DNA of 64,000 nt from an uncultured Acidobacteriia bacterium (GTDB taxonomy: Bacteria > Acidobacteriota > Terriglobia > Bryobacterales > Bryobacteraceae), in assembly GCA_903851195.1 (NCBI GenBank), contig CAINNJ010000025.1, positions 372,001 through 436,000 on the forward strand. The letters are read 5' to 3'. Both the position numbers and the translations under genes were made by a program. The notes under the pieces were generated by a model, which saw only the letters and a program-made list of their open reading frames with translations, did no database searches and was not told the origin of the DNA. Below are positions 3,733 to 18,990 of this stretch, in pieces (the first letter of the stretch is position 1; each line of letters opens with the position of its first letter).

Positions 3733-5328
3733 TTACTTTTCGAGGGTGATCACCGGCACCGGCACGGACTGCGCCGGTTCAAATAAGCCGAAGGAAAACA
3801 CGTTGGTGCCGGCGGCGATGGACACATATTCCTTGCCATCCACCGCGTAAATAATCGGCGAGGCGGTGATGACGTCGCCCACGTTGTAATGCCAGAGGTG
3901 GCGGCCGGTCTTCGCTTCGAGCGCGATCAGGTGGCCGTCGTCGTCGCCGGAAAAGAGAACGCCGGTGGCGGTGGTGACGACACCGGTCCACATGCGGGAC
4001 GTGTTGCCGACCGGGTACTGCCAGACGCGCTTGCCGTTCTTCGGGTCGATGGCGCGGAGGATGACGGGGCCGCCGGGTTCGGTGGCCGCGCCGCCCGCGA
4101 AATTCTTCATCGGAACAGGTTTCTGGTTCGAAAGTGTGAACATGCCGCACTCTTCCTGCGTGAGGATGTAGAGCAGGCCGGTGCCAGGGTTGAAGCTCTG
4201 GCCCATCCAGTTAGTGCCGCCTTTGACGCTGGGGCAGACCCAGTTGCCTTCGGCCGTGGGATCTTTGCCGGGGACGATGACGGGCTTGCCGCTGTCGTCG
4301 ATGCCGGAGGCCCAGGTCAGATTGTCGATGAGCTGCGTGGCCTTGAGGAACTTGCCGGTCTGGCGGTCGAGGATGTAGAAGAAGCCGTTGCGGTTGGCGT
4401 GCACGACGACTTTGCGCGTGGCGCCTTCCCAGGGGATTTCGAGGAGCACGGGCCAGCTTTGGGCATCCCAATCATGCAGGTCGTGCGGGGTGAACTGGAA
4501 GTACCATTTCAGCTTGCCGGTTTCGAGGTCGAGCGCGATGACGGAGCAGGAGTAGAGATCGTTGCCTTCGCGCGGCTTGCCGGCGTAGTCGGGCCACGGA
4601 TTGCCGGTGGTCCAGAAGAGGGTGTTGGAGTCGGGGTCGAAGGTGCCGGAAAGCCAGGTGGCCGCGCCGCCCCATTCGTGCAGGTCGCTCCATGTTTCCG
4701 AACCGGGTTCGCCTCTGGCGGGGACGGTCCAGGTGCGCCAGACTTCGGCGCCGGTTTTGGGATCGAGGGCGGCGATGAAGCCGCGCATGCCGGTGTCGCC
4801 GCCGGCGCTGCCGACGAGCACTTTGTCCTTGACGACAAGCGGCGCGGAGGTGGAGATGGTGCCGGTGGAGGCGTCGGCGAAGTGGTGGCTGAAGAGCAGC
4901 GCGCCGGTCTGGCGGTCGAGCGAGACCAGGTAGTTGTCGGTGGTGGTGAAGTAGACGGAATCGCCGTAGATGGCCGCGCCGCGATTGACGCCGCGGCGTT
5001 TGGCCTGGCCATCGTCATAGCGCCAGATCAGGCGGCCGGTGCGGGCGTCGAGAGCGTGGACGGAGTTCGAGTTCGTCACGTACATGACGCCGGCGTAGAC
5101 GATGGGCGAGGTGCGCAGGCCGTTGGCGTCCGGGAAATGGTAAGTCCACTTGGGGACGACGTTGGCGGCGTTCTGCAGGGTGATCTGTTTCAGGGGACTG
5201 TAACGCCAGCCCTGGAAGTTGCCGGCGTAGGTGAGCCAGTTGTCGCCGGCGCCTTTGACGATGTCCTCATAGCGTACTTGCGCGGCCGCGGTGGTGAGGG
5301 TGAGCAGGGTGAGGAGGATCGTCTTCAT
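3733..5328 (-). CDS. secreted PQQ-dependent dehydrogenase (quinoprotein alcohol dehydrogenase type)
   Basis: 531-residue periplasmic beta-propeller enzyme expected to oxidise an alcohol or sugar using pyrroloquinoline quinone and pass electrons to a cytochrome. The ATG at 5328 is chosen because it gives a signal peptide (MKTILLTLLTLTTAAAQ) and a 4-base overlap with the cytochrome gene before it; the frame remains open further upstream but there it is the shadow of that gene. PQQ-propeller repeats occur throughout (VHALDARTGRLIWRY, LDLETGKLKWYFQ), and FTPHDLHDWDAQ corresponds to the conserved TPHDxWDxD motif of methanol/ethanol-type quinoproteins. It is shorter than classic 600-residue family members. 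The substrate is unknown. Confidence 0.92.
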   Translation of the reverse strand: MKTILLTLLTLTTAAAQVRYEDIVKGAGDNWLTYAGNFQGWRYSPLKQITLQNAANVVPKWTYHFPDANGLRTSPIVYAGVMYVTNSNSVHALDARTGRLIWRYDDGQAKRRGVNRGAAIYGDSVYFTTTDNYLVSLDRQTGALLFSHHFADASTGTISTSAPLVVKDKVLVGSAGGDTGMRGFIAALDPKTGAEVWRTWTVPARGEPGSETWSDLHEWGGAATWLSGTFDPDSNTLFWTTGNPWPDYAGKPREGNDLYSCSVIALDLETGKLKWYFQFTPHDLHDWDAQSWPVLLEIPWEGATRKVVVHANRNGFFYILDRQTGKFLKATQLIDNLTWASGIDDSGKPVIVPGKDPTAEGNWVCPSVKGGTNWMGQSFNPGTGLLYILTQEECGMFTLSNQKPVPMKNFAGGAATEPGGPVILRAIDPKNGKRVWQYPVGNTSRMWTGVVTTATGVLFSGDDDGHLIALEAKTGRHLWHYNVGDVITASPIIYAVDGKEYVSIAAGTNVFSFGLFEPAQSVPVPVITLEK

Positions 5329-6158
5329 TTGGAATCTTCTTTCGCGTTGTCGGACGCCGGGCGGATGGACTGTTTGGCGAGATAGGCGAGCAGGTCGCGC
5401 AGTTCCGTGGCGGTGAGGCGGGTATCGTAGTCCTCCGGCATGAGCGAGTGGTTGAGGACGGCCAGGGCTTTCACGTCCGCCATCTGGATGAGATGGAGTT
5501 CGCCTTTGGTGTCGACGACCTGCAGGGAGTAGTTGCTGCGATTGCGTGCGATGCCTTTGACGATCTTGCCGTTCTTGAGCGTTACCGTGACGCCTTCCTT
5601 GCCGTAAAGGGCGAAGTTGCGGGAGGGGTCGTTTTTCGCGGGGACGATGGCCTGGCGGATGTAGGCGAGGGGGCGGCTGCCACCGATGTTGCTGAGGTCG
5701 GGACCCATGCGGCTGCCTTTGCCGAGGATGGCGTGGCATCCGCCGCAGCCGGCCTTTTCGCCCCAGTAGAGGCTCTCGCCGGCGACGGGATCGCCGGGCA
5801 CGCGGCTGTCCGAAGCGGGTCCGGTGAGGGCGCGGATGTAGGCGGTGAGCTTCCAGGTGTCGTCATCGGAGAGGCTGGTGGGCGGCATGTCGGTGCCGGG
5901 GACGCCGTTGCGGATGGCGGCGAAGAGTTCGTCGTCTTTGAGTTGGTGGGACTGCAGTTGACGCACGAGGTTGGGGCCGCGTCCGCCGACGCCGTCCGGG
6001 CCGTGGCAGCCGCCGCAGGACTGGTTGTAGAGTTTCGCGCCTGCGGCGATGGCGACGGGATCTTTGATGGCGGGGTTGGGTTTGGGGGTGGCGGACTGGT
6101 CGTGCTGGGCGCGCAGGAGGACGGGCAGGGTGAGCAGCAGCGCGGCTGAAATTCGCAT
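5325..6158 (-). CDS. diheme c-type cytochrome, partner of the PQQ dehydrogenase
   Basis: 277-residue exported cytochrome with a signal peptide (MRISAALLLTLPVLLRAQ) and two CGGCH haem sites, one near residue 50 (NQSCGGCHGPDG) and one near residue 138 (GCGGCHAILG). Conserved Met ligands are plausible in TDMPPTS and in SLMPEDY near the C-terminus. The region after the second haem (GKEGVTVTLKNGKIVKGIARN) resembles the C-terminal haem-binding module common in Acidobacteria and Planctomycetes. The stop overlaps the start of the dehydrogenase gene by 4 bases, so the two are translated together and probably form one electron-transfer unit. Confidence 0.92.
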   Translation of the reverse strand: MRISAALLLTLPVLLRAQHDQSATPKPNPAIKDPVAIAAGAKLYNQSCGGCHGPDGVGGRGPNLVRQLQSHQLKDDELFAAIRNGVPGTDMPPTSLSDDDTWKLTAYIRALTGPASDSRVPGDPVAGESLYWGEKAGCGGCHAILGKGSRMGPDLSNIGGSRPLAYIRQAIVPAKNDPSRNFALYGKEGVTVTLKNGKIVKGIARNRSNYSLQVVDTKGELHLIQMADVKALAVLNHSLMPEDYDTRLTATELRDLLAYLAKQSIRPASDNAKEDSK

Positions 6159-6451: not shown

Positions 6452-7525
6452 ATGAAATCTGAATCAACGGAGTTGACACCAGCCGCAAAAGGCGGGATCG
6501 CCAGAGCCGAAAAGCTCTCTAAACGCGAACTGTCGGAAAGTGGCAAGAAAGCAGCGGCGGCGCGGTGGGGCGCGGATCTGCCACAGGCATCGCATGACGG
6601 CCCCCTTCAAATCGGGGATTCGATCTTCGTAGCCGCAGTTTTGCAGAATGGTAAGCGCCTGCTGGCGCAGGGTACCTTCCTTAAGGCAATTGGACGATCC
6701 CGGACACCGAAGGCTGGTACAGGCGGGTTAAGTACAGGCGACGGGCTCCCGTTCTTCTTGCAAGCTGAAATACTTAAGCCATTCATCTCAGAAGAGCTAA
6801 GATCGTCGACTACTCCAATATTTTTTCGCCTCAGAAGCGGACAAAGGGCCGTTGGATACGACGCCATGCTTCTGCCCATGGTGTGTCAGGTTTACCTCAA
6901 GCTCCGCAATGATCTTAACGACAAAATCCGCAATGGTGACAGCGCAACCAGAAAAACTGCGGAAGGAGCAATGAAGCAATACGAACACATCATCACTGCC
7001 TGCGACATCCTGATCCAAGGCTTAGCGATGCGCGGAATTATTGCTTTGGTAGACGACGCCACGGGCTACCGCGCCAACCAAGCCAAAGAGGACATGCTGC
7101 GTGTCATTGCCCAGTACATTGCCCCGGATCTCCGGCGTTGGACGCAGAAGTTCCCACCTGAATTTTTCGAAGAAATCTATAGGCTGTACAGCTGGGACTA
7201 TAAACCCGGGAGTATCAAACACCCTCAGTACGTAGGTAAACTGATTAATAAGTACATCTACGAACCGTTACCGCCGGGTGTGCTGGAGGCGATGAGAAAC
7301 TCGGTACCCAAGAACGAGCATGGGGCGCGCACCGCGAAGCTATGGCAGACCCTGAGCGTAGGAACCGGCATCCCCCATCTGGACAGGCAAATCGCCGACA
7401 TCTACATGATGATGAGACTGTCCGCTGATAAGGACGAGTTGGCGCGGAACTTCGACAGGCTTTACGGAGAACAGCTTCAATTGCGCCTTCACATACTCAA
7501 AGAACTTCCGGAACTCTCCGCGTGA
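6452..7525 (+). CDS. P63C domain-containing protein (accessory, function unknown)
   Basis: 357 residues. The N-terminus has the pattern KGGIARAEKLSKRELSESGK followed by KAAAARWG, often seen in proteins of phage-like or mobile origin. Residues about 225-330 match the P63C domain (RRWTQKFPPEFFEEIYRLY, YEPLPPGVLEAMRNSVPKN), a family of unknown function found in plasmids, phages and genomic islands. The gene and its upstream region are clearly less GC-rich than the neighbours, which suggests acquisition. It stands alone between a cytochrome gene on the other strand and a convergent small gene. The promoter and repeats in front of it suggest tight control. Confidence 0.8.
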   Translation: MKSESTELTPAAKGGIARAEKLSKRELSESGKKAAAARWGADLPQASHDGPLQIGDSIFVAAVLQNGKRLLAQGTFLKAIGRSRTPKAGTGGLSTGDGLPFFLQAEILKPFISEELRSSTTPIFFRLRSGQRAVGYDAMLLPMVCQVYLKLRNDLNDKIRNGDSATRKTAEGAMKQYEHIITACDILIQGLAMRGIIALVDDATGYRANQAKEDMLRVIAQYIAPDLRRWTQKFPPEFFEEIYRLYSWDYKPGSIKHPQYVGKLINKYIYEPLPPGVLEAMRNSVPKNEHGARTAKLWQTLSVGTGIPHLDRQIADIYMMMRLSADKDELARNFDRLYGEQLQLRLHILKELPELSA

Positions 7526-7607: not shown

Positions 7608-7628
7608 CTGGCAGCAATTTGCTGTCAG
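7608..7628. terminator. hairpin between convergent genes
   Basis: CTGGCAGCA (7608-7616), 3-base loop, TGCTGTCAG (7620-7628): nine pairs with one G-T. It covers the stop codon of the small minus-strand gene and follows the P63C gene by 80 bases. There is no T-run after it on either strand, so termination is only probable. Confidence 0.4.
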
Positions 7629-7846
7629 TTCACCGGCGCGCCGGGGCGGAGATTAAACGGCAGCATCGCGCCTTTTTGGGAGATTTCGAATTCGATCTGC
7701 TCCACCACCGCCTGGTGCTCGGCGATCAGGGAGTCGAGCTCCTTTTTCTGCTCTTCGGTGAGATAGCGGGTCTTGCAGAAAGCGATGGCGCGCTCGGCTC
7801 TTTCCTTCGCCTTGCGGGTGACTTCGATGGCTTCTTCGATGGTCAT
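7625..7846 (-). CDS. small hypothetical protein, helical
   Basis: 73 residues, highly charged and helical (MTIEEAIEVTRKAKERAERA, YLTEEQKKELDSLIAEHQAV), with no recognised domain. It follows the acyl-CoA dehydrogenase gene by 18 bases on the same strand, so it is probably the last gene of that transcription unit. A start at 7846 has only a weak ribosome binding site. A possible link to the upstream metabolic genes is by position only. Confidence 0.55.
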   Translation of the reverse strand: MTIEEAIEVTRKAKERAERAIAFCKTRYLTEEQKKELDSLIAEHQAVVEQIEFEISQKGAMLPFNLRPGAPVN

Positions 7847-7864
7847 TATTCTGATCTTAACTCT

Positions 7865-9064
7865 TCAATAGTTCTTCAGTTCCAGTTTCGCGATGGCCTC
7901 CAGATGGACTTCGTCGGGGCCGTCGGCGAGGCGCAGGGTTCGGGAGTTCGCCCAGGCGCCGGCTAATTCAAAGTCATCCGAAACGCCCGCGCCGCCGTGG
8001 GCCTGAATCGCGCGGTCGAGGACGCGCAGCGCTACGTTCGGAGCCACCACTTTAATCATGGCGATTTCCGCGCGCGCGCCTTTATTGCCGACCGTGTCCA
8101 TCATCCACGCGGCTTTGAGAACCAGCAGGCGGGCCTGTTCGATTTCGATTCGGGAGGTCGCGATATCGGCGCGGATGGTGCCCTGTTCGGCCAGCGTTTT
8201 CCCGAAAGCCACGCGGGATTTCACGCGGCGGCACATATCAGCGACAGCCCGTTCGGCCACTCCGATGAGGCGCATGCAGTGGTGAATGCGGCCGGGTCCG
8301 AGGCGTCCCTGGGCGATCTCGAAGCCGCGGCCTTCGCCCAGCAGCAGATTGCCGGCGGGCACGCGGACGTTCTCGAAAAGCACCTCGCCGTGGCCGTGCG
8401 GGGCCTGTTCATAGCCGAAGACGGGAAGCATGCGGACGATCTTCACGCCGGGCGCGTCCATCGGCACCACGATCATGGACTGCTGTTTGTGCTTGGGCGC
8501 GGTGGGGTCCGTCTTGCCCATGAAGATGGCGACTTTGCAGCGCGGGTCGCCGGCGCCGGAGGTCCACCACTTGCGGCCGTTGATGACGTATTCGTCGCCA
8601 TCGCGGACGATGCTGGATTCGATGTTGGTGGCGTCGGAAGAAGCCACGGCGGGCTCCGTCATGGCGAAGCAGGAGCGGATTTCACCGGCGAGCAGAGGCT
8701 CCAGCCACTGCTTGCGGAGTTCCGGGGAGGCGTAGCGCTCGAAGACTTCCATGTTGCCGGTGTCGGGCGCGGAGCAGTTAAAGACTTCGGGGCCGATGGG
8801 CGAGGCGCCCATGATTTCGCAGAGGGGCGCGTATTCCAGGTTCGTGAGTCCGGCGCCGTGTTCGCTGGCGGGCAGGAAGAGATTCCAGAGTCCGGCGGCG
8901 CGGGCGAGGGGCTTGAGCTCTTCGATAATCGGCACGGGCTGCCAGCGGTTCGGGCCGCGGGTGTGCTCGTGGAATTTGTGCTCGTTGGGGAAGACGTGCT
9001 CCTGCATGAAGGCGCTGACGCGCGCGCGGAGGTCGTTCACTTTAGCGGAGTATTCGAAGTGCAT
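7865..9064 (-). CDS. acyl-CoA dehydrogenase, ACAD10/ACAD11-like
   Basis: 399-residue flavoprotein. The ATG at 9064 is used: it lies 5 bases after the stop of the aldolase gene, and the open frame before it is a shadow. Family motifs: [17 protein letters not shown] for substrate/FAD binding, [21 protein letters not shown], and near the C-terminus [11 protein letters not shown], the signature of the ACAD10/11 group in which Asp replaces the usual catalytic Glu. In animals ACAD10/11 have an aminoglycoside-phosphotransferase-like kinase fused to the dehydrogenase and act on 4-hydroxyacyl-CoA through a phosphorylated intermediate. Here the kinase is a separate gene three positions upstream, which supports the same reaction (inference). 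Confidence 0.93.
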
Positions 9065-9069
9065 GAATT

Positions 9070-9846
9070 TTAGTCGAGGAGGTCGGGTTCGAGGCGCGTG
9101 ATCCACTGCCAGAGGGGCTGGAACTGGAAGCAGCCGGCGGCGGGGGTGCCAAGCTGGCTGCGCGTCAGCAGCGCGTCTTCGTGGCGGATGGGGACCGGCG
9201 TGCCCGCGGCCTGGGCGAGCAGCTGGGACTGGCAACTGCGGTCCATGGCGATGAACCACCAGACGGCTTCGTCGACGGTCTGGCCGACGGTGAGCAGGCC
9301 GTGGTTGCGCAGGATGGCGGCTTTGCGGGGTCCGAGCGCGGCGGCGATGCGGTCGCCCTCGCTGGTGTCGTAGACGATGCCGGTGAAGTCGTCGAAGAGG
9401 CCGTGGTCTTCGTAAAAGGCGCAGGCGTCCTGTGTGAGGGGGTCGAGGAGTTTGCCAAGGCACGACCAGGACTTGCCGTACATGGAGTGGGAGTGGGCGG
9501 CGGCGACGACATCCGGACGCGCTTCATGCACGCGCGAGTGGATGGCGAAGGCGGCGCGGTTGACGGGGTGTTTGCCTTCCACGACCTCGCCGCGGGAGTT
9601 GACGAGGATCAGGTCGGAGGCGCGGACGTGGGCGAAGTGAACGCCGAAGGGGTTGACCCAGAAGTGGTCGGGTTGTTCGGGGTCGCGGGCGGTGATGTGG
9701 CCGGCGACGCCTTCGTCGTAACCGAAGCGGGCGAAGAGGCGGAAGCCGGCGGCCATGCGCTGTTTGCGGTGGAGGCGTTCGTCGGCGAGGGTGGCCGGTT
9801 TGGCCGGTGCGGGGATGTTGAGAGTGATTGCTGCCGCTTGTGCCAT
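9070..9846 (-). CDS. class II aldolase/adducin family protein
   Basis: 258 residues of the class II aldolase fold. The metal-binding histidines are visible in [13 protein letters not shown] (HSH), with a further His in [23 protein letters not shown] is also typical. These enzymes make or break C-C bonds in hydroxy-acid or sugar-phosphate substrates; adducin-like members may lack activity, but the metal ligands are intact here. It lies between the histidine phosphatase and the acyl-CoA dehydrogenase genes with gaps of 21 and 5 bases, so it is part of the same operon. Its substrate is unknown. Confidence 0.9.
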
Positions 9847-9867
9847 GACTGCACTTTATAACAAAGC

Positions 9868-10602
9868 TTAGCGGTATGTGCAGAGGGCCGGGTCCAGATG
9901 CGGGACGCCGTTGAACGCGTGCAGGCGGAGTTGATCCGCGCGGAGGCGCATGACGGAGATGGAAGCGTTCAGGAGCACACCGGCAAGGCGCATGGCGCGG
10001 TAATCCTCCACGTCCATGCTGAGCGCGGCCCAGATGCCGATGGGCGTGGCGGAGGTGAAGATGGCGATGTTGTGGTCGTCGGTGGGATCTGCAGTGGCGG
10101 CGAGGGCGGTGCGGCGGGCGGCGATGCGGTCATGGAAAGCGAGCCAGGTTTCGCCGTCGTAGCGGGGGTGGCCTTTGATCCACGCCTGCACGATTTTGAG
10201 GTCGCTGGGGGTCCAGCGGCGATGGACCGCGGCGTCGTGCTGTTCGCCGGCGGCAAGCAGGTCGGCGCGCATGGTTTCGAACTCGTGGCGAAAGGCGGCG
10301 TCTTCCTCGCACAGGATGGGCGCGAGCTGGCTGTAGACGTGGTCGAGATCGAACTCATTCCAGCCGGGGTCGACAGTGAGTTCGGGAACGGCCACGCCCG
10401 CGTCGGAATAGGCGGAGAGCACCTCGTCGGCGGTCTGCCGTTGCCGGGTCAGCGCGCCGGAGTACGCGGCGTCGAAACGAATGCCGGAGCGAACGAAGTA
10501 CTCGCCGGCGAGGCGGGCCTGGCGGCGTCCGAGATCGGAGAGCGTGTCATAGCAGTTGCGCGTGCCGGCCTGGCCGTGGCGGATCAGATATATCTTGCTC
10601 AT
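9868..10602 (-). CDS. histidine phosphatase (phosphoglycerate mutase) family protein
   Basis: 244 residues. The phosphate-accepting motif LIRHGQ is at residues 6-11 (His9), with the conserved Arg in SGALTRQRQTA and an acidic residue in WNEFDLD. The second catalytic His, usually in a V-x-H-G-G loop, is not present: the equivalent stretch reads IFTSATPIG. This is either a subfamily feature or loss of activity. The gene start overlaps the stop of the APH-type kinase gene by 4 bases, so a phosphatase and a kinase are made together. A role in removing phosphate from the kinase product or in quality control is inference. Confidence 0.88.
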   Translation of the reverse strand: MSKIYLIRHGQAGTRNCYDTLSDLGRRQARLAGEYFVRSGIRFDAAYSGALTRQRQTADEVLSAYSDAGVAVPELTVDPGWNEFDLDHVYSQLAPILCEEDAAFRHEFETMRADLLAAGEQHDAAVHRRWTPSDLKIVQAWIKGHPRYDGETWLAFHDRIAARRTALAATADPTDDHNIAIFTSATPIGIWAALSMDVEDYRAMRLAGVLLNASISVMRLRADQLRLHAFNGVPHLDPALCTYR

Positions 10603-11660
10603 GAGTTGCGGTTCACCAGTTCATCGGCGAGTTGGACAAGGGTGCGGACGCGGCGGTCGAAGGCGCGGAAGCGTTCGTCGTGCGTCTGGCCGCGATGGAA
10701 ACGCACGTAGATCTGCTGCAGAATCACGGCGAGTTTGAAGATGCCGAGCACTTCGTGATAGCCGAGTTGCGAGACGTCGCGGCCGGTGCGGAGCGCATAG
10801 CGGTGGACGAATTCATCGCGCGTGTACCAGCCGGGCGACATGGTGATGACGGGCGTGGCGGGGTGCGGATCGTTTTGCGAGGCGATACAGGCCCAGGTCC
10901 AGTAACAGAGGGTAAGGCCGAGGTCGGCGAGGGGGTCGCCGAGGGTGGTCATCTCCCAGTCGAGCACGGCTTCCACGCGGTTCGCGGAGGGCGCGAGCAT
11001 CACGTTGTCGAGCTTGAAATCGTTGTGGACGAGCGTGGGCGCGGGCGAGGCGGGGATGTGGTTTTGAAGCCAGTGGATCACGCGGTTCATGGCGGGGAGT
11101 TCTTCGGTTTTGGCGTGCTGCCAGCGCTCGGACCAGCCGCGCACCTGGCGTTCGACGAAACCGGCGGGCTTGCCGAGCGCGGCGATTTTCGGGGCGGCGA
11201 CGTCCACTTCGTGCAGGCGCACCAGGCAGTCGATGAAGGCTTCACTGACCAGGCGCGGGTAGTCGGGGACGGCGTTCCATTCGGGCGGTGGCGCGTCGCG
11301 AAGAACGATGCCGTGGCGGCGTTCCATGAGGAAAAACGTCGCGCCGACGACGGCGGGATCTTCGCAGAGCAGGACGACGCGAGGGGCTTCCGGGAAGTGG
11401 GGATTCACCGCGTCCAGCACGCGAAACTCGCGGGCCATGTCGTGCGCTTTGGGGGGCACGGGGCCGAGGGGCGGGCGGCGGAGGACGTACTCGGTTGCGC
11501 CCGCGCGGATCAGATAGACGAGGTTCGAGTGGCCGTTCGGGAATTGGGCGATTTCGATGTTGCCGGCGAGATCGGGCAGCCGGGCTTGCAGCCAGGCCGC
11601 GAGATTGCCGGTGTCGAGTTCTTCACCGGCGCGGACCGGCGTGATGTCGGTCGTCATCAT
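10599..11660 (-). CDS. APH-type phosphotransferase (ACAD10/11 kinase-domain homologue)
   Basis: 353 residues with the start taken at ATG 11660 (a second ATG follows at once; an in-frame GTG at 11705 is less likely). N-lobe: FPNGHSNLVYLI and YVLRRPPLGPVPPKAHDM. Catalytic loop LVHNDFKLDNVML (HxDxxxxN type) and LDWEMTTLGDPLADLG with the metal-binding Asp. RRPPLGP and the GDPLADLG pattern are characteristic of the kinase domain found in ACAD10/11 and in the LvaA kinase of levulinate breakdown. The likely reaction is ATP-dependent phosphorylation of the hydroxyl of a hydroxyacyl-CoA. It heads the group kinase, phosphatase, aldolase, dehydrogenase. Confidence 0.9.
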   Translation of the reverse strand: MMTTDITPVRAGEELDTGNLAAWLQARLPDLAGNIEIAQFPNGHSNLVYLIRAGATEYVLRRPPLGPVPPKAHDMAREFRVLDAVNPHFPEAPRVVLLCEDPAVVGATFFLMERRHGIVLRDAPPPEWNAVPDYPRLVSEAFIDCLVRLHEVDVAAPKIAALGKPAGFVERQVRGWSERWQHAKTEELPAMNRVIHWLQNHIPASPAPTLVHNDFKLDNVMLAPSANRVEAVLDWEMTTLGDPLADLGLTLCYWTWACIASQNDPHPATPVITMSPGWYTRDEFVHRYALRTGRDVSQLGYHEVLGIFKLAVILQQIYVRFHRGQTHDERFRAFDRRVRTLVQLADELVNRNS

Positions 11661-11787
11661 TTCGCGGCGCGGAGGGTGACGCCAGGTTCGGAGGCTTCTG
11701 GGCACAGGTGGCGCATGTTTAATGATGGTATCGCGGGGGGAGATGAGGGGATTCGGACGGGGGAGATCAGGATTGGGATAAATCAGA

Positions 11788-12179
11788 TCAGTCCATCCGG
11801 CCGAGAATCTCTTCTCTTAGTTCGATGCGCCTGGCATCATTCAACGCAAGGACGGCAACGGTAGTTCGGCCTGATGCGGTTAACCCTGAACATAAGCGCC
11901 ACGATAAACAAACTGATCCGCCCACCGGTCTGGGCGGGGGTGGAACAGGCTCTCCACCTTGCCTGTCATCGGGTCGATTCCGCTTTGGTTTGGGCCTTTG
12001 TGCAGATTGCAGCGATGGCAGGCGAACGCAGGATTTTCGATATTATCGCCACCGCCATGCTGACGGGCGACAATGTGTTCGATGTGATGCGGCACTGCGC
12101 TGTGGTCCTGGTGAAGCAGTCAGCACTCGCAACGACTTCCGGCCCTCTCCCGAACAAAAGACCGGGTTCCGGAATCCAC
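11788..12179 (-). pseudogene. HNH endonuclease, broken by a TGA codon and a frameshift
   Basis: Reading from GTG 12179 gives RERAGSRCEC, then TGA at 12122-12120, then LLHQDHSAVPHHIEHIVARQ and ACHRCNLHKGPN, a clear HNH nuclease (HxH, GG, N, CxxC). The TGA stands where the family has the second Cys of its first CxxC. The frame then ends at 11880, but a one-base shift continues it as TASGRTTVAVLALNDARR and ends at TGA 11788, the expected family C-terminus. Two independent lesions show a dead gene. A 71-residue fragment from GTG 12095 could still be translated. It follows the preceding small gene by 2 bases. Confidence 0.85.
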
Positions 12180-12181
12180 CG

Positions 12182-12448
12182 TTAATTAGCAAGCCGGGCC
12201 AGCTGCCGCTGCGCTTTTAGCCGAAGGATGGAGATGAAGTCGGCGGCATTGATCAGAGCTTCGTATTCGGATCGCTCGTCAGCGGTTAGCCGCCCCTCAT
12301 TCGCGCTTTCACCAAGCACCTCGATCCGCGCTAACACCTGAGGATCGATTCGGAAGGCCACCAGACGCCGCGCCGATTCCGCGTCCAGACACTGACTCAG
12401 GGGTTCCAGAACACTATCGAGTCCGGCAGCCACGCTCATCACTCTCAC
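12182..12448 (-). CDS. small conserved protein paired with HNH endonuclease
   Basis: 88 residues, acidic and helical, with TADERSEYEALINAADFISI near the C-terminus. Proteins of this kind are often encoded directly before an HNH nuclease gene, and here the stop is 2 bases before the start of the broken nuclease. The start could be ATG 12448 or 12439. The function is unknown; it may control or bind the nuclease. The pair sits inside an otherwise metabolic run of genes on the same strand. Confidence 0.65.
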   Translation of the reverse strand: MRVMSVAAGLDSVLEPLSQCLDAESARRLVAFRIDPQVLARIEVLGESANEGRLTADERSEYEALINAADFISILRLKAQRQLARLAN

Positions 12449-12517
12449 GCTATCACGGGAAGAGACGACGCGCTCATGCTCCTCGTTTCCCGGTCCACGC
12501 GGTCGGAGTCAGGCAGT

Positions 12518-12973
12518 TCAACGATAGTAGCGGACAATCCACTCCGCCACGCAGCAGGGCTTTTCAGAGCCTTCGAGCTCGATGGTTACAGCGAAAGTGA
12601 GGTCGGCGCCGCTGGAGCCTTCTCCGGAAAACGGTTTGACGTTCTGCAGCGTGAAGCGGCCGCGGATGCGGGAATCCACACGCACGGGCGCGGGGAAGCG
12701 CACGCGGTTCAGGCCGTAGTTGACGCGCATGGTCACGCCTTCCACGGGCAGCACATTGCGGGAAAGATGACTCAGCAGAGACAGCGTGAGGAAGCCGTGC
12801 GCGACGGTGGTCCGGTAGGGCGAATCGTGTTCGGAACGCTCGCGGTCGAGGTGGATCCACTGGCGATCTTCGGTCGCGTCGGCGAACAGATCGATGCGGC
12901 GCTGGTCGACCGTCAACCAGTCCGAGACGGCTACTTCTTTACCGGTAAGTTCGTGTAAGTTGTCGATGGTCAT
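12518..12973 (-). CDS. MaoC-family (R)-hydratase
   Basis: 151-residue hot-dog-fold protein. The hydratase motif is present in LFADATEDRQWIHLD (catalytic Asp and His), followed by TTVAHGFLTLSLL, both typical of (R)-specific enoyl-CoA hydratases of the MaoC group (single-domain length about 150). The start overlaps the stop of the acyl-CoA ligase gene by 4 bases, so ligase and hydratase are coupled. It would hydrate trans-2-enoyl-CoA produced by activation and dehydrogenation of an acid substrate. Confidence 0.92.
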   Translation of the reverse strand: MTIDNLHELTGKEVAVSDWLTVDQRRIDLFADATEDRQWIHLDRERSEHDSPYRTTVAHGFLTLSLLSHLSRNVLPVEGVTMRVNYGLNRVRFPAPVRVDSRIRGRFTLQNVKPFSGEGSSGADLTFAVTIELEGSEKPCCVAEWIVRYYR

Positions 12974-14475
12974 CGGAGCGGCTTTCCCCAGTCTATGTTC
13001 TGGCGCAGAGCTTTCTTCAGGATTTTGCCGCCCGGGTTGCGCGGCAGGAAATCGGTGGCGGAGCGGATGACCATGTATTGTGGCACTTTGAAATCGGCGA
13101 GGTGTTCGCGGGCGAAACGGACGATGCCGGCGGGCTCGGGCGTGCGGCCTGGTTTGGGCACGACGATGGCGCCGACTTTCTCGCCCATCATTTCATCGGG
13201 CACGCCCATGACGGCCACTTCGAAGATATCGGGGTGGGCCGTGAGCGCGCTTTCCACTTCGACGCAGTAGACGTTTTCGCCGCCGCGGTTCACCATGTCC
13301 TTCTTGCGGTCGCAGATCTGGAGGAAGCCTTCCGCGTCGAGCCGGGCGAGGTCGCCGGTGCGGAGCCAGCCGTCCGCGAACGTCTCCGCTGTGGCCTCGG
13401 GCTTGTTCCAGTAGCCGGGGACTACGTTCGGGCCGCGGATAAGAAGCTCACCGACATCGCCGCTGACATCGGTCAGACGCAGGTCGACCACAGGCGCGGC
13501 GAGACCGACGGCGTCGGGTCGCGTGACGGAGTATCCGGCGGGCAGGAAAGTGGCGATCGAGGAGACTTCCGTGAGGCCGTAGCTGTTGGAGACGGCAGCG
13601 TTGGGGAAGGCTTCGATGAGCGCGGCGATGAGGTCGGGCGCGGCGGCGGCGCCACCGTAGGCCAGGCGGCGGACGCGGGACATATCGAACTCGCGGAAGT
13701 TGGGCTGGTGGATGGCAAGCCAGTAGATGGCGGGGACGGTGATGATGACCTCGATGCGCTCGGTCGCGATGGCGCGGAGGAAGGTCTGCACGTGGAACTG
13801 CGGCAGGATCACGGTGGCGCCGCCGCCTTCGCAGGTAGGCAGCAGCTGCGTGTTGCAGCCGGTGACGTGGAAGAGCGGGGCGGAGACCAGGTTGCGGACC
13901 GGGCCGGCGGGGCCGATGCCGACGCGGCGGGCGGTTTCCATGTTGGAGAGAAAGTTCTCCTGCGTGGTCATGGCGCCTTTGGGGAAGCCGGTGGTGCCGG
14001 AGGTGTAGAAGATGGCGGAGAGGTCGGCGAAGGTCAGGTCTTCGATGGCGTACGCCGGGCCGTCGGGAAGCGGCGCGCCGGGGAGGAAGACGAAGGCGCT
14101 GCCGGAATCCGTGAGGACGTAGTCGATCTCCGACTCGCTGAGGCGGGTGTTGACGGGGACGGCTGCGGCTCCGGCGAGTTGCGCGCCGAAGAAGGCGACG
14201 CACCAGTCGATACCGTTGGGCAGGCGGATGGCCACGCGGTCGCCGCGGCGGATGCCCAGGGCGCGAAGACCGCCGGCGACGCGAGCAGCGCGGTCCCAGA
14301 GTTCGCGATAGGCGATTCGCGGGCCTTCAAACTCGACCAGGGCTTCGGCGTCCGGGACGCGATCCACCGTGCGCCGGAGCATTTCGACGAGGTTGGGCGC
14401 GAGAGTCTGGTAGCGGGCAACGCCCAGAGAATCACGGTCGATGCCGGACTGGTCGAACGGTTTGAGAAGGGGCAT
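12970..14475 (-). CDS. AMP-binding acyl-CoA synthetase (ligase)
   Basis: 501 residues, usual length for the ANL superfamily. P-loop-like motif FYTSGTTGFPKGAMTT near residue 155, SNSYGLTEVSS (A5), GWLRTGDLARLDAEGFL and DRKKDMVNRGGENVYCVEVE (A7/A8 hinge), and the C-terminal catalytic Lys in NPGGKILKKALR. It activates a carboxylic acid with ATP and CoA. The acid is not readable from sequence; similarity is to medium-chain or aromatic/hydroxy-acid ligases. It abuts the upstream metallo-hydrolase gene and overlaps the MaoC gene, so it opens the metabolic part of the run. Confidence 0.93.
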   Translation of the reverse strand: MPLLKPFDQSGIDRDSLGVARYQTLAPNLVEMLRRTVDRVPDAEALVEFEGPRIAYRELWDRAARVAGGLRALGIRRGDRVAIRLPNGIDWCVAFFGAQLAGAAAVPVNTRLSESEIDYVLTDSGSAFVFLPGAPLPDGPAYAIEDLTFADLSAIFYTSGTTGFPKGAMTTQENFLSNMETARRVGIGPAGPVRNLVSAPLFHVTGCNTQLLPTCEGGGATVILPQFHVQTFLRAIATERIEVIITVPAIYWLAIHQPNFREFDMSRVRRLAYGGAAAAPDLIAALIEAFPNAAVSNSYGLTEVSSIATFLPAGYSVTRPDAVGLAAPVVDLRLTDVSGDVGELLIRGPNVVPGYWNKPEATAETFADGWLRTGDLARLDAEGFLQICDRKKDMVNRGGENVYCVEVESALTAHPDIFEVAVMGVPDEMMGEKVGAIVVPKPGRTPEPAGIVRFAREHLADFKVPQYMVIRSATDFLPRNPGGKILKKALRQNIDWGKPLR

Positions 14476-15480
14476 TTAGCGGGATTGGTAGGTCTCACTG
14501 AACTGATTCCGGCTGTTGGTGAGCGTGAAAGAGCCGTCTTTCGCGACCGTGGCTTTGACCCAGTGGCCCTGATCTTCACTGCCCGGATTGGCGATCTTCT
14601 GTTCGGCGGTGTTGTGGGCCTTGTCGCTGTCTACCGCTTCGTGGAGTTGCCACACGCCTTCGACGCCGGGGAGCTTGGAGATGAGTTCGTAGGCGGAGGG
14701 CTGCAGGCCTTTTTTCGGGGCGTTGTTGACGACCACGACGACAGGCTTCAGAGCGTTGTACAGGGCTGGCGCGCCGGAGGCGTCGTTGAAGAAGCCGTGG
14801 TGGGTGGCCTGGAGGAGAGTCACGGCGCCGACTTTGTTCACCGGGCAGGCGAGCATCATTTCGCGGTCCCAGGTGAGGTCGCCGATATCGAAGAATTTGA
14901 ATTTTCCGTACGTGAGCAGCAGGCCGGCGCTCTGGCCGTTTTCCGATTTATCGATGTCTTTTTGTATTGCGCCGTCGCAGAAAGGGTTGGGACCGCCGCC
15001 ATTGATCGGTTTGGAGAGGACCTTGCCGGCCGAGGAAACGACGTCGAGTTTTACTTCACGGAGCTGGATCACCTGGCCGGGCTTAACCGGCGAGCGGTTA
15101 CCGGCGGCGACGCTCTTGTACGCGATCCAGGGTTTGCCCCCGCTGCCTTCCGGCTCGACGGAGTCGCCGTGATCGTAGTATTTCGTGATGGGGATCAGTT
15201 TGGAAAGCGCGGGCGCGCCGCCGACGTGATCGCCGTGATAGTGAGTGGTGAAGAGAGCGTCGATTTTGCGCAGGCCGGCCTGTCTCGTGGCGACGTCGAA
15301 GATGCGGGCAGCATCGCGCTCGCCGGGGTTGCCGGTGTCGATCAGGAAACTTTCGCCGGTCGGGGTGACGATCAGAGTCGCGGCGCCGCCTTCCACGTCC
15401 ACCCACCAGATGTCGAGTTTCCCGGTCTGGGCGGCGAGAACGGAGGGGAAAACGATACTGAGTAGAATTGCCTTGAGCAT
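14476..15480 (-). CDS. secreted metallo-beta-lactamase-fold hydrolase
   Basis: 334 residues with a signal peptide (MLKAILLSIVFPSVLAAQ). The zinc site THYHGDHVGG (HxHxDH) is at about residue 80, with a further site in LQATHHGFFNDASG; the fold resembles the ComEC/Rec2 C-terminal domain type but without membrane part. An extracytoplasmic hydrolase; the substrate is unknown. The stop is directly next to the start of the ligase gene. It may supply the operon with substrate by cleaving an ester or similar bond outside the cytoplasm (inference). Confidence 0.85.
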   Translation of the reverse strand: MLKAILLSIVFPSVLAAQTGKLDIWWVDVEGGAATLIVTPTGESFLIDTGNPGERDAARIFDVATRQAGLRKIDALFTTHYHGDHVGGAPALSKLIPITKYYDHGDSVEPEGSGGKPWIAYKSVAAGNRSPVKPGQVIQLREVKLDVVSSAGKVLSKPINGGGPNPFCDGAIQKDIDKSENGQSAGLLLTYGKFKFFDIGDLTWDREMMLACPVNKVGAVTLLQATHHGFFNDASGAPALYNALKPVVVVVNNAPKKGLQPSAYELISKLPGVEGVWQLHEAVDSDKAHNTAEQKIANPGSEDQGHWVKATVAKDGSFTLTNSRNQFSETYQSR

Positions 15481-16518: not shown

Positions 16519-17655
16519 ATGCAGACTGCGTCCACTGATGTTGTACGGCGGATCAACCGCCGCGTTGTACTGAATCTGATTCGAACGCGGCAGACCCTGT
16601 CGCGGGCGGAACTGGCGAGGCTGTCGGGCATGCAGCGCAGCACGATCTCCCTGATTGTGGAAGAACTGATCGGGGACGAATGGGTGCTGGAAGGCCCGCG
16701 AGGGCGGCTGCCGAGAGGCCGGCGTCCGACGTTTCTGCGGCTCAACGAAGAGCGGGTGATTATCGGCGTGGATATCCGGCCGACGCTGACGACAGTGGCG
16801 CTGGCCGATGTGAACGGGCGTTTCCTCAGCCAGGAAGCGCTGGCAACGCCGGGGCAGGCGGAAGCGGCGATCGACGCGGTGATTGCGCGCATTCGGAACC
16901 TGCAGGCGCGATGCGCGGGGAAGAAGATCGAAGGGGTGGGAATCAGTCTGCCGGGACGGGTGGATCCTGTCAGCCGGCGGTTCGTGTTTGCGCCGAATCT
17001 GGGCTGGCGGGATGTGGATCTTGAAGGTCCCATCAGCGCGGCGACGGGGCTTGACGTGGAACTCGATAACGCGGCGAATGGCTGCGCGCTGGCGGAGGAG
17101 TGGTTTGGGCAACATGCCCCGGAGCGGCATCTGGTGGTGGTGACCGTGAGTGAGGGGATCGGTGCCGGAATTCTGCTGGACGGGAAACTGGCACGCGGGC
17201 TGAACGGGATGGCGGGGGAGATCGGGCATGTCCCGGTGGATCCGGCAGGGCCGTTGTGCGGGTGCGGATGCCGGGGATGCTGGGAGGTTTATGCGTCGAA
17301 CCAGGCCGCACTCCGGTATTACGGGTCGGCAGATCTGACTTTCGCGGAGTTGCTGCAGCGCGCGGATCAGGGGGATTCACGGGCGGTTGAAGCGCTGGAG
17401 AAGATGGCGCATCATCTGGGGCACGGGATGCGGCTCATCGTGGCGGCGCTGGCGCCGGACCGGATTGTGGTGATCGGGGATCTGACACGGTCGTGGGAGC
17501 GGTTCGGGCCCATTATCGAGAATGAGGTGCGGGCGCAGGTGCCGCGGGGCGGGACGGCTCCCCTGGTAACGCCGGCGCATGAAGACGGGATGGCGCGGTT
17601 GCGGGGGACGGTGGTGCTGGTTTTACAGAAGCATTTCGGGCGGGCTTTGGGTTGA
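16519..17655 (+). CDS. ROK-family transcriptional regulator
   Basis: 378 residues, full length for NagC/XylR-type ROK repressors. Residues about 10-60 are a winged helix-turn-helix (LSRAELARLSGMQRSTISLI), residues about 75-370 a sugar-kinase-like ROK domain with GVDIRPTLTTVALAD, SEGIGAGILLDG and the zinc motif CGCGCRGCWEVYAS. It lies upstream of the CE15 esterase and DUF2891 genes on the same strand (30-base gap), so it probably controls them in response to a sugar released from plant polymer (inference). Confidence 0.93.
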   Translation: MQTASTDVVRRINRRVVLNLIRTRQTLSRAELARLSGMQRSTISLIVEELIGDEWVLEGPRGRLPRGRRPTFLRLNEERVIIGVDIRPTLTTVALADVNGRFLSQEALATPGQAEAAIDAVIARIRNLQARCAGKKIEGVGISLPGRVDPVSRRFVFAPNLGWRDVDLEGPISAATGLDVELDNAANGCALAEEWFGQHAPERHLVVVTVSEGIGAGILLDGKLARGLNGMAGEIGHVPVDPAGPLCGCGCRGCWEVYASNQAALRYYGSADLTFAELLQRADQGDSRAVEALEKMAHHLGHGMRLIVAALAPDRIVVIGDLTRSWERFGPIIENEVRAQVPRGGTAPLVTPAHEDGMARLRGTVVLVLQKHFGRALG

Positions 17656-17685
17656 TTCCTGCGTTCATGTGAAATAATCGCGGCC

Positions 17686-18990
17686 ATGAAGAGCGGTCGT
17701 GATTGGGTTCTGAGTGGATGGGTCCTGATTCCCGTGCTGGCGGTGCGCGCGGCGGCGCAGATTGCCGATTATCCGGCGGATACGGTGGCGGGGATTCCGG
17801 TGAATTACACGGAGTCGCTGGCCGGAACTTATACACTGCCGGATGCGCTGGTTCTTCTAAACGGCAAACCCGTCAAAGACACGAAAATCTGGACGGAGAA
17901 GCGGCGTCCGGAGATTGTCCGGCTGTTCGAAGAAAACCAGTATGGGCGCATGCCTGGGCGTCCTTCGGACATGAGTTTCGATGTCTATGACAAGGGCACG
18001 CCGGCTTATGACGGAAGGGCCATCCGGCGCCAGGTCACGATTTATTTTTCGAAAGACAAAGCGGGTCCGAAGATGGATCTGCTGCTGTATTTACCGGCGG
18101 ATGCCAAAGGCCCCGTGCCGGTGCTGCTGAATGCGGGTTTTTCCGCCAATTCGAACGCGGTGGACGATCCGGGCGTGAAGGTGGGCGAGATCTGGGGCCG
18201 GGATCAGAAGCGGGTTCCGGCGACGCAGGGACGAGGGTTCGGCAAGCTGAACGTGCCGGCGTTCGTGAAAGAGGGGTTTGGTGTCGCGACGGTTTATTAC
18301 GGCGATATCGATCCGGATTTCCTGGGCGGCGTGACGCTCGGCGTGCGGAAGTTGTATCTGAAGCCGGGGCAGGAAAAACCGGCAGCCGACGAGTGGGGCG
18401 CGGTCAGCGCGTGGGCATGGGGCCTGAGCCGCGCGCTGGATTACCTGGTGTCCGATAAAGGCGTTGATGCGAAGCGCGTGGCGTTGACCGGTGTGTCCCG
18501 TCTCGGCAAGACGGTGATGTGGGCCGGCGCGCATGACGAGCGGTTCGCGATGGTGATTGCGAGTTGTTCCGGCGAAGGCGGGGCGGCTCTGAGCCGGCGG
18601 AATTACGGCGAGACCATCGCGCACCTGGTTGCCTCGGGGCGGTATCCATATCAGTTTGCGGAGAATTATGGGAAGTATGCGGCGCATCCGGAAACATCGC
18701 CGGTGGACGCGAATTTGTTGGTTGCGCTGATTGCGCCCCGGCCGCTGCTGCTACAGACAGGAAACACCGATAAGTGGTCGGATCCGAAGGGTGAGTTTCT
18801 GGCGGCGAAGGCGGCGGAGCCGGTTTATCGATTGTTCGGGAAACAGGGGCTGGGCGTGGACGAGGTGCCCCCGGCCGGACAGGCGGTGCTGCATGACATG
18901 GGGTATCTCATGCATGCGGGCGGTCACGGGATGGTGCCTTCCGACTGGGATGTCTATCTGCAGTTCATGAAGATGCATTTCGTGAAATAG
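17686..18990 (+). CDS. glucuronoyl (4-O-methyl-glucuronoyl methyl) esterase, CE15 family
   Basis: 434 residues with an N-terminal signal peptide ending near AAAQ. The catalytic Ser is in GVSRLGK, the hallmark of CE15; the acid residue is in SCSGEGGAALSRR, and the His in MHAGGHGMVPSDWD. CE15 enzymes cut the ester between lignin alcohols and glucuronic acid side chains of xylan. The length fits bacterial members. It follows the ROK regulator and is directly followed (2 bases) by the DUF2891 gene, suggesting plant cell-wall breakdown as the role of this small operon. Confidence 0.9.
   Translation: MKSGRDWVLSGWVLIPVLAVRAAAQIADYPADTVAGIPVNYTESLAGTYTLPDALVLLNGKPVKDTKIWTEKRRPEIVRLFEENQYGRMPGRPSDMSFDVYDKGTPAYDGRAIRRQVTIYFSKDKAGPKMDLLLYLPADAKGPVPVLLNAGFSANSNAVDDPGVKVGEIWGRDQKRVPATQGRGFGKLNVPAFVKEGFGVATVYYGDIDPDFLGGVTLGVRKLYLKPGQEKPAADEWGAVSAWAWGLSRALDYLVSDKGVDAKRVALTGVSRLGKTVMWAGAHDERFAMVIASCSGEGGAALSRRNYGETIAHLVASGRYPYQFAENYGKYAAHPETSPVDANLLVALIAPRPLLLQTGNTDKWSDPKGEFLAAKAAEPVYRLFGKQGLGVDEVPPAGQAVLHDMGYLMHAGGHGMVPSDWDVYLQFMKMHFVK

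Follow-up and report, generated by a model that had tools for sequence, protein, structure and literature searches.

A probable bacterial counterpart of the ACAD10/11 and lva hydroxy acid modules, with separate genes and a serine-bearing histidine-phosphatase-fold partner

Introduction

Papers of 2024 and 2025 ascribe to the animal proteins ACAD10 and ACAD11 a route in which hydroxy acids are first phosphorylated and the phosphate is then eliminated (PMC11342911, PMC12440821), and the elimination chemistry of the acyl-CoA dehydrogenase (ACAD) portion of both proteins is set out there in print. We have analysed a 64,000-nucleotide stretch of DNA, hereafter the window, from an uncultured Acidobacteriia bacterium (GenBank assembly GCA_903851195.1, contig CAINNJ010000025.1, positions 372,001 to 436,000), in which one minus-strand run includes genes for an AMP-forming acyl-CoA ligase, a MaoC-type protein, an aminoglycoside phosphotransferase (APH)-type kinase, a histidine-phosphatase-like protein (HP) and an ACAD. 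We consider it likely that these five core genes are the bacterial form of the ACAD10/11-lva module, split into separate genes, and that they carry out its kinase and ACAD steps. The host assembly comprises 7.72 Mb in 67 contigs and is 99.66% complete.

Several features of the described systems guide the comparison. In the published model of ACAD11, Arg626, His634 and Arg637 are placed on the 4-phosphate of the substrate, and substituting these residues stops the ACAD step; Asp753 is the catalytic aspartate, and Arg631 is common to ACADs (PMC12440821). ACAD10 possesses a HAD domain that is described as phosphatase-like, catalytically incomplete and able to restrain the kinase, and bacterial kinase and ACAD homologues have substituted for ACAD10 domains in vitro (PMC11342911). 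Both the kinase-ACAD route and the occurrence of kinase, histidine phosphatase and ACAD genes in one cluster, that of Pseudomonas citronellolis (PMC6692424), are already known.

Results

The ACAD and the kinase share catalytic residues with ACAD11

Among solved structures, the window ACAD matches a putative ACAD (4hr3, E = 4.6e-144) and ACAD11 (8v3u, 1.4e-143) far ahead of the next entries, 1ukw (7.7e-39) and MCAD (2.8e-37). Its Arg254, Arg259, His262, Arg265 and Asp381, numbered from the ATG start codon at 9064, correspond with identical spacing to R626, R631, H634, R637 and D753 of ACAD11, and so the protein has both the phosphate-binding cluster (R254/H262/R265) and, as D381, the catalytic aspartate in place of glutamate. 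We compiled 106 loci for comparison, some of which lie on short contigs: the kinase was the criterion of choice for 20 of them, and HP for the others, 80 from genomes and 6 from plasmids. From these came 60 ACAD sequences, and the 49 that score above 400 with a profile of the window family were counted as ACAD11-type. The Arg, Arg, His and Arg residues are present in all 49, and the Asp in 48, with a gap in the one remaining sequence. The other 11 sequences (scores of 160 or less) lack the Arg/His/Arg set, although one has Asp in the base column. Five other ACAD-like open reading frames (ORFs) were matched in the host genome, and in each of the four that were read, Glu stands in the column of D753 and the R626/H634/R637 set is missing. 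A kinase lies within 6 kb of each of the 49 ACAD11-type ACADs, a count that we do not use as evidence because choosing loci by kinase or HP biases it. The window protein is an ACAD of the ACAD10/11-LvaC kind, and elimination of phosphate from a phospho-acyl-CoA is its predicted reaction.

The best solved matches of the kinase are 9o56, which is named ‘aminoglycoside phosphotransferase’ (9e-103), 3dxp (8e-49) and ACAD11 (5e-48). Residues D214 and N219 align with the catalytic D220 and N225 of ACAD11, and R171 aligns with the CoA-contacting R176; each of these three positions is kept in 65 of 66 aligned kinases, the remaining one being a gap. We also built a kinase tree (FastTree, best domain per locus, midpoint rooting, LvaA not included) in which the window sequence falls in a clade of 25 that contains 9o56 and a Deinococcus radiodurans kinase, as opposed to a clade of 55 that contains ACAD11 and 3dxp (supports 1.0 and 0.84). 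In this tree the window clade is the sister of the ACAD11 kinase clade, such that the window protein is like the ACAD11 kinase by its residues without being its nearest relative.

Kinase, HP and ACAD genes keep company in relatives

Sixty-one genomes were searched for the three proteins. A kinase match was present in 37, reduced to 36 when a partial match in G019 (2e-4) was dropped; an ACAD at E <= 1e-100 was present in 35, and an HP match in 40, from which a partial match in G035 (2.7e-4) was dropped. Kinase and ACAD occur together in 34 genomes, the kinase alone in two (G055, and G003, where the contig ends at the kinase), the ACAD alone in one (G037) and neither in 24, and the two co-occur even where their genes are far apart (G040). 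For kinase and HP, the corresponding numbers are 33 with both, three with the kinase only, six with HP only and 19 with neither.

Gene order was read in the 20 loci fetched around kinases, nine of which are from the genus of the window and 11 from elsewhere. Kinase, HP and ACAD are contiguous in all nine same-genus loci, and five of these have the full order ligase-MaoC-kinase-HP-ACAD; in another (L050), ligase and MaoC lie further down. Among the 11 other loci, two have kinase-HP-ACAD, six have kinase-HP and three have no HP. A comparison of 30 kinase loci (L009 to L038, with L009 being that of the window itself) places HP in the fetched flank of 18 of the 21 closer kinases, with shortened flanks at the misses L012 and L029, and in the flank of none of the nine distant kinases, though most of those genomes have HP elsewhere.

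A first-pass annotation of this DNA had proposed a kinase and an ACAD of the ACAD10/11-LvaA/LvaC kind, encoded by separate genes alongside those for a ligase and MaoC, and residues, structural matches and gene order bear this out. The neighbourhood that it expected to be conserved also contained an aldolase gene. The kinase-HP-ACAD order did hold in relatives, as the nine same-genus loci attest, but the aldolase was encountered in none of the 106 loci.

HP has serine in place of its second catalytic histidine

Our HP alignment holds 104 sequences, namely that of the window and those of the 103 HP-bearing loci among the 106. The nucleophile motif R8-H9 is present in all 104, as is E83, and R53 is present in 103; residues 8 to 10 read RHG in 98 sequences and RHA in six. 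The second of the two catalytic histidines, towards the C terminus, is however replaced by Ser184, and serine occupies this position in 104 of 104 aligned sequences. A further 16 HPs from relatives, with no kinase match in the fetched 3-6 kb, have serine as well (16/16), and thus it is found in all 120 family members that were read. Two aligned control HPs from the host genome both have His at position 184, and a third (L078), judged by eye, has a His as well. In a profile alignment whose columns were inspected by eye, two solved CobC proteins show His where HP shows the serine. The C-terminal histidine is described as fully conserved in a published alignment (PMC3866925). The scan that yielded the 80 genome loci used two N-terminal patterns and therefore did not select for serine; its HPs were confirmed by similarity to one serine-type HP, and the set was limited to the best 80 of 578.

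An AlphaFold2 model of HP (42 sequences) has a mean pLDDT of 89.9 and a pTM of 0.87. Its solved-fold matches, among the 50 listed, are all members of the histidine phosphatase superfamily at 13-19% identity, and RosC, phosphoserine phosphatases, phosphoglycerate mutases and PGAM5 are named there. Given that the second catalytic histidine is absent across the family, HP cannot simply be taken to act as an ordinary phosphatase. What survives of the earlier label ‘histidine phosphatase’ is therefore a recurring partner of the kinase, seen also in P. citronellolis (PMC6692424), and not a protein with the standard catalytic set.

Of the 103 HP loci, 59 have a kinase gene at a distance of 5 kb or less, but 17 of these had been chosen by their kinase; a fairer count is 42 of 86 HP-chosen loci (38 of 80 from the scan and 4 of 6 from plasmids), some on short contigs. 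HP stands beside kinases of both clades, and does so in two named phyla (in Deinococcus and in alpha-, beta- and gammaproteobacteria) as well as in the lineage of the window. In D. radiodurans the set consists of the kinase WP_227141751, the HP WP_010889452 and the ACAD WP_010889455. We conclude that HP is a recurring but optional partner.

Some further observations concern individual HPs. The RHA-type proteins are those of L094, L104, L115, L116, L119 and L149, and the one in L116, which has no kinase within 5 kb, adjoins a short-chain dehydrogenase/reductase (SDR), which is followed by a PNPOx-like protein. Genome G031 carries two HP-like genes, one beside the kinase and the other beside the ACAD (L179, L053). 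The kinase-less HP neighbourhoods L079 and L110 looked partly unrelated.

The gene run and its insertions

The run from 15480 to 7865 on the minus strand contains seven genes, each with a best Pfam match well over the cut-off (Table 1). All the proteins named in the first-pass annotation, from the ligase and the metallo-hydrolase to the ACAD with its DGPDEVH motif, are encoded there on that strand. Its picture of 4-base overlaps or very short gaps fits most junctions: ligase/MaoC and kinase/HP are the sole ones with a 4-bp overlap, the metallo-hydrolase gene directly abuts the ligase gene, and the spacers are 21 bp between HP and aldolase and 5 bp between aldolase and ACAD. It does not fit the 857 bp between MaoC and kinase, in which an HNH endonuclease remnant lies, and the left end that it gave, 7625, is merely the stop of a 73-aa ORF (orf73).

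Table 1. Features of the minus-strand run and its insertions, with coordinates in the window
Feature	Coordinates	Strand	Basis and remarks
MBL-fold metallo-hydrolase	14476-15480	-	Lactamase_B, 3.5e-18; lineage-specific, not core
AMP-forming acyl-CoA ligase, 501 aa	12970-14475	-	Pfam AMP-binding, 7e-75; core
MaoC-type protein, predicted enoyl-CoA hydratase, 151 aa	12518-12973	-	MaoC_dehydratas, 3e-20; core
MaoC/kinase insertion, 857 bp	11661-12517	-	88-aa ORF and HNH endonuclease remnant
88-aa ORF	12182-12448	-	no Pfam match; upstream of the HNH remnant
HNH endonuclease remnant, 71-aa piece	11880-12095	-	HNH PF01844, 1.2e-7
APH-type kinase, predicted hydroxyacyl-CoA kinase, 353 aa	10599-11660	-	Pfam APH; core
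Histidine-phosphatase-fold protein (HP), 244 aa	9868-10602	-	His_Phos_1; core
Class II aldolase/adducin-family protein, PRK06208 subfamily, 258 aa	9070-9846	-	Pfam and NCBIfam; lineage-specific insertion, not core
ACAD10/11-LvaC-type ACAD, 399 aa	7865-9064	-	DGPDEVH motif; complete Pfam ACAD domains; core
73-aa ORF (orf73)	7625-7846	-	sub-threshold Pfam match only; not core

The nearest relative, G009 (L044), has the order DUF4920-DUF1697-ligase-MaoC-kinase-HP-ACAD-cytochrome c-PQQ dehydrogenase. Four additions set the window apart from it: the metallo-hydrolase of the metallo-beta-lactamase (MBL) fold, the HNH stretch between MaoC and kinase, the aldolase gene and, downstream of the ACAD, orf73 with a P63C-domain gene. 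Their absence from other loci suggests that these were gained in the lineage of the window rather than lost elsewhere. By phmmer (E <= 1e-5), both the aldolase and the MBL hydrolase are absent from all 106 loci, and we rejected each as a core enzyme on this count; the same search does detect the aldolase of G032. That protein, at 72% identity, is also the sole close aldolase homologue in the 61 genomes besides that of the window, and G032 is without a kinase, an HP or a close ACAD match. An earlier proposal, in which the aldolase and the metallo-hydrolase mark out a variant that uses a different substrate, is not sustained by these counts, nor by G009, which has the five-gene order without either.

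The stretch between MaoC and kinase was considered as a hidden operon enzyme gene, but it holds the HNH remnant and the 88-aa ORF instead, and as a repeated mobile element, but it is present in a single copy in the host genome. The remnant appears to be frameshifted, in that we read a continuation in another frame at 11788-11925. Neither this insertion nor orf73 gave a tblastn match above 45 bits in the 20 relatives’ loci.

Other observations at the locus can be noted in their own right. The best solved relatives of the aldolase include NovR and TqaM, and the name ‘class II aldolase’ may mislead. The N terminus of the MBL protein resembles a signal peptide when judged by eye. Genes for a pyrroloquinoline quinone (PQQ)-dependent dehydrogenase and a cytochrome c lie at 3733-6158 (minus strand); their homologues directly follow the ACAD in L044, and here the P63C-domain gene (6452-7525, plus strand) and orf73 separate the pair from the ACAD. 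A link to this pair was rejected, given that it is found only in the nearest relative among the 20 loci, probably through common ancestry. A ROK-family regulator and a glucuronyl-esterase-like protein are encoded at 16519-18990 (plus strand), an order that is kept in the nearest relative.

Discussion

The path that we propose would feed hydroxy acids into beta-oxidation. The ligase, judging from its family, would make a hydroxyacyl-CoA, and the APH-type kinase, given its homology and conserved catalytic residues, would phosphorylate a hydroxyl on the chain, most likely at C4. The Arg/His/Arg set of the ACAD would then grip the phosphate, and FAD and Asp381 would expel it to give a 2-enoyl-CoA with no net oxidation, after which the MaoC protein could, as its family suggests, hydrate the enoyl-CoA to a 3-hydroxyacyl-CoA. 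We place the kinase and ACAD steps in this path because of the residue identity with ACAD11 and the published experiments on ACAD10/11 and on homologues from bacteria. For HP, a role as a modified phosphatase or as a partner without catalysis, comparable to LvaB or to the degenerate HAD domain of ACAD10, which restricts or channels the phosphorylated intermediate, seems more likely than that of an ordinary phosphatase; this is the least certain step, to which we would give close to an even chance, if just short of one. Aldolase, metallo-hydrolase and the HNH remnant would be later insertions that stand outside the path, and the sequence does not reveal a substrate.

A number of observations weigh against this reading. 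The activities and substrates of all window proteins are predictions. The kinase lies outside the clade of the ACAD11 kinase, with which it shares 31% identity, and therefore the hydroxyl position on which it acts could differ; in addition, the CoA-contacting R86 of ACAD11 has no counterpart placed in the kinase alignment, where numbering and alignment are uncertain. Ligase and MaoC genes are adjacent in just five of the nine same-genus loci, and HP occurs in six of the 25 kinase-less genomes. Fisher p values for co-occurrence, 1.3e-13 for kinase and ACAD and 5.9e-8 for kinase and HP, ignore the kinship of the genomes. A full 44 of the 86 HP-chosen loci have no kinase within 5 kb and keep the serine all the same, which rules out a strict tie of HP to the kinase; since serine is also found in HPs that have no kinase nearby, it marks the HP subfamily and not a kinase partnership. 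In the eight annotated plasmid ACAD contexts, HP is listed within 6 kb in none and the kinase in seven, although these contexts were hand-picked from 30 listed records, are mostly outside the HP list and come from incomplete plasmid gene tables; at least nine of the same 30 records, all from Deinococcus, do have an HP match. Finally, a rat enzyme of the histidine phosphatase family is reported to keep its activity within tenfold after loss of the catalytic histidine (PMC10728186).

This last report bears directly on whether HP could be a working phosphatase despite its serine, either as a safety valve that clears dead-end or wrong-isomer phospho-acyl-CoA or as a participant in phosphate removal. 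Such a role would be compatible with the predicted fold and with the retention of His9, Arg8 and Glu83 in every aligned HP and of Arg53 in all but one, and phosphate removal by HP has been proposed for P. citronellolis (PMC6692424). However, the C-terminal histidine that is fully conserved according to PMC3866925 is serine in 120 of 120 HPs, and the purified ACAD domains of ACAD10 and ACAD11 are reported to remove phosphate without a phosphatase (PMC12440821). We regard a working phosphatase as quite possible, though somewhat below an even chance. More tentative still, and on the unlikely side in our estimate, is the broader idea that the whole, widespread HP family consists of regulatory or channelling pseudo-phosphatase partners of hydroxyacyl-CoA kinases, a counterpart in another fold of the degenerate HAD domain that restrains the ACAD10 kinase and a stand-in for LvaB; the modest share of HP-chosen loci with a nearby kinase, 42 of 86 within 5 kb, lowers our estimate slightly.

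The remaining alternatives concern the substrate and the enzymes that act on it. The kinase might phosphorylate the hydroxyl at position 3 or 5 or on a ring, or use a branched or cyclic acyl-CoA, and the ACAD eliminate that phosphate, as would accord with the separate kinase clade, with ligase and MaoC neighbours that are unlike lva and with the lack of an LvaD-type reductase among the seven genes scanned with Pfam. The Arg/His/Arg set is nonetheless identical to that of ACAD11, which fits a 4-phosphate in the published model (PMC12440821), and we consider another hydroxyl unlikely. Less probable again is an operon in which aldolase and metallo-hydrolase act on another substrate, for example by aldol cleavage or by opening a lactone or ester upstream of the ligase. 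The two genes share the reading direction of the run with spacers of 0-21 bp and are probably co-transcribed in this strain, and NovR and TqaM are among the best solved matches of the aldolase; against this stand the absence of each gene from the 106 loci, the five genes of G009 without them, and the presence of the only close aldolase homologue in a genome that has neither kinase nor HP nor close ACAD match. An ordinary flavin dehydrogenase that acts on plain acyl-CoA, with an unrelated kinase beside it, would agree with the complete Pfam ACAD domains, but Asp replaces the Glu base, the phosphate-binding set is present, and of the 37 genomes with at least one of the two genes 34 have both, all of which leaves this explanation very improbable.

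A literature search of open-licence PMC papers found no report of the invariant serine or of a tested function of this HP. In our view the pathway is a known one, of which the locus represents a variant, and HP is a component of it that has been overlooked. In the bacterial modules described here, the kinase, the ACAD and the accessory protein are separate and can each be examined by itself. If the serine-type HP does control the kinase, degenerate phosphatases of two unrelated folds would have come to serve one and the same role, and what the HAD domain of ACAD10 and LvaB do could be tested in a harmless bacterium. The findings also suggest that some genes annotated as ‘aminoglycoside phosphotransferase’ or ‘histidine phosphatase’ may belong to an acyl-CoA pathway.

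Among described systems, the lva-like cluster of P. citronellolis LA18T shares with the window a kinase, a histidine phosphatase and an ACAD in one cluster, and no lvaB was found there in 2019; it differs in having an SDR (the LvaD homologue), an LvaE2 ligase and a transporter, whereas the window has MaoC, and the available text of that paper does not mention the serine substitution (PMC6692424). The lva pathway of Pseudomonas putida likewise has a separate kinase (LvaA), ACAD (LvaC) and ligase (LvaE), as described in PMC6692424 and PMC12440821, and the window differs from it by the presence of HP and MaoC; no LvaD-type SDR reductase is encoded by the seven genes of its run. In the lva operon the kinase also has a partner protein, LvaB. 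The closest solved relatives of the window kinase are PDB 9o56 and 3dxp. With animal ACAD10 and ACAD11, the locus shares a kinase of the APH kind and an ACAD with a catalytic Asp and an Arg/His/Arg phosphate site. In the window, however, these are separate genes, the kinase belongs to another clade, ligase and MaoC are part of the operon, and the phosphatase-like partner, which in ACAD10 is a HAD domain, has a histidine-phosphatase fold.

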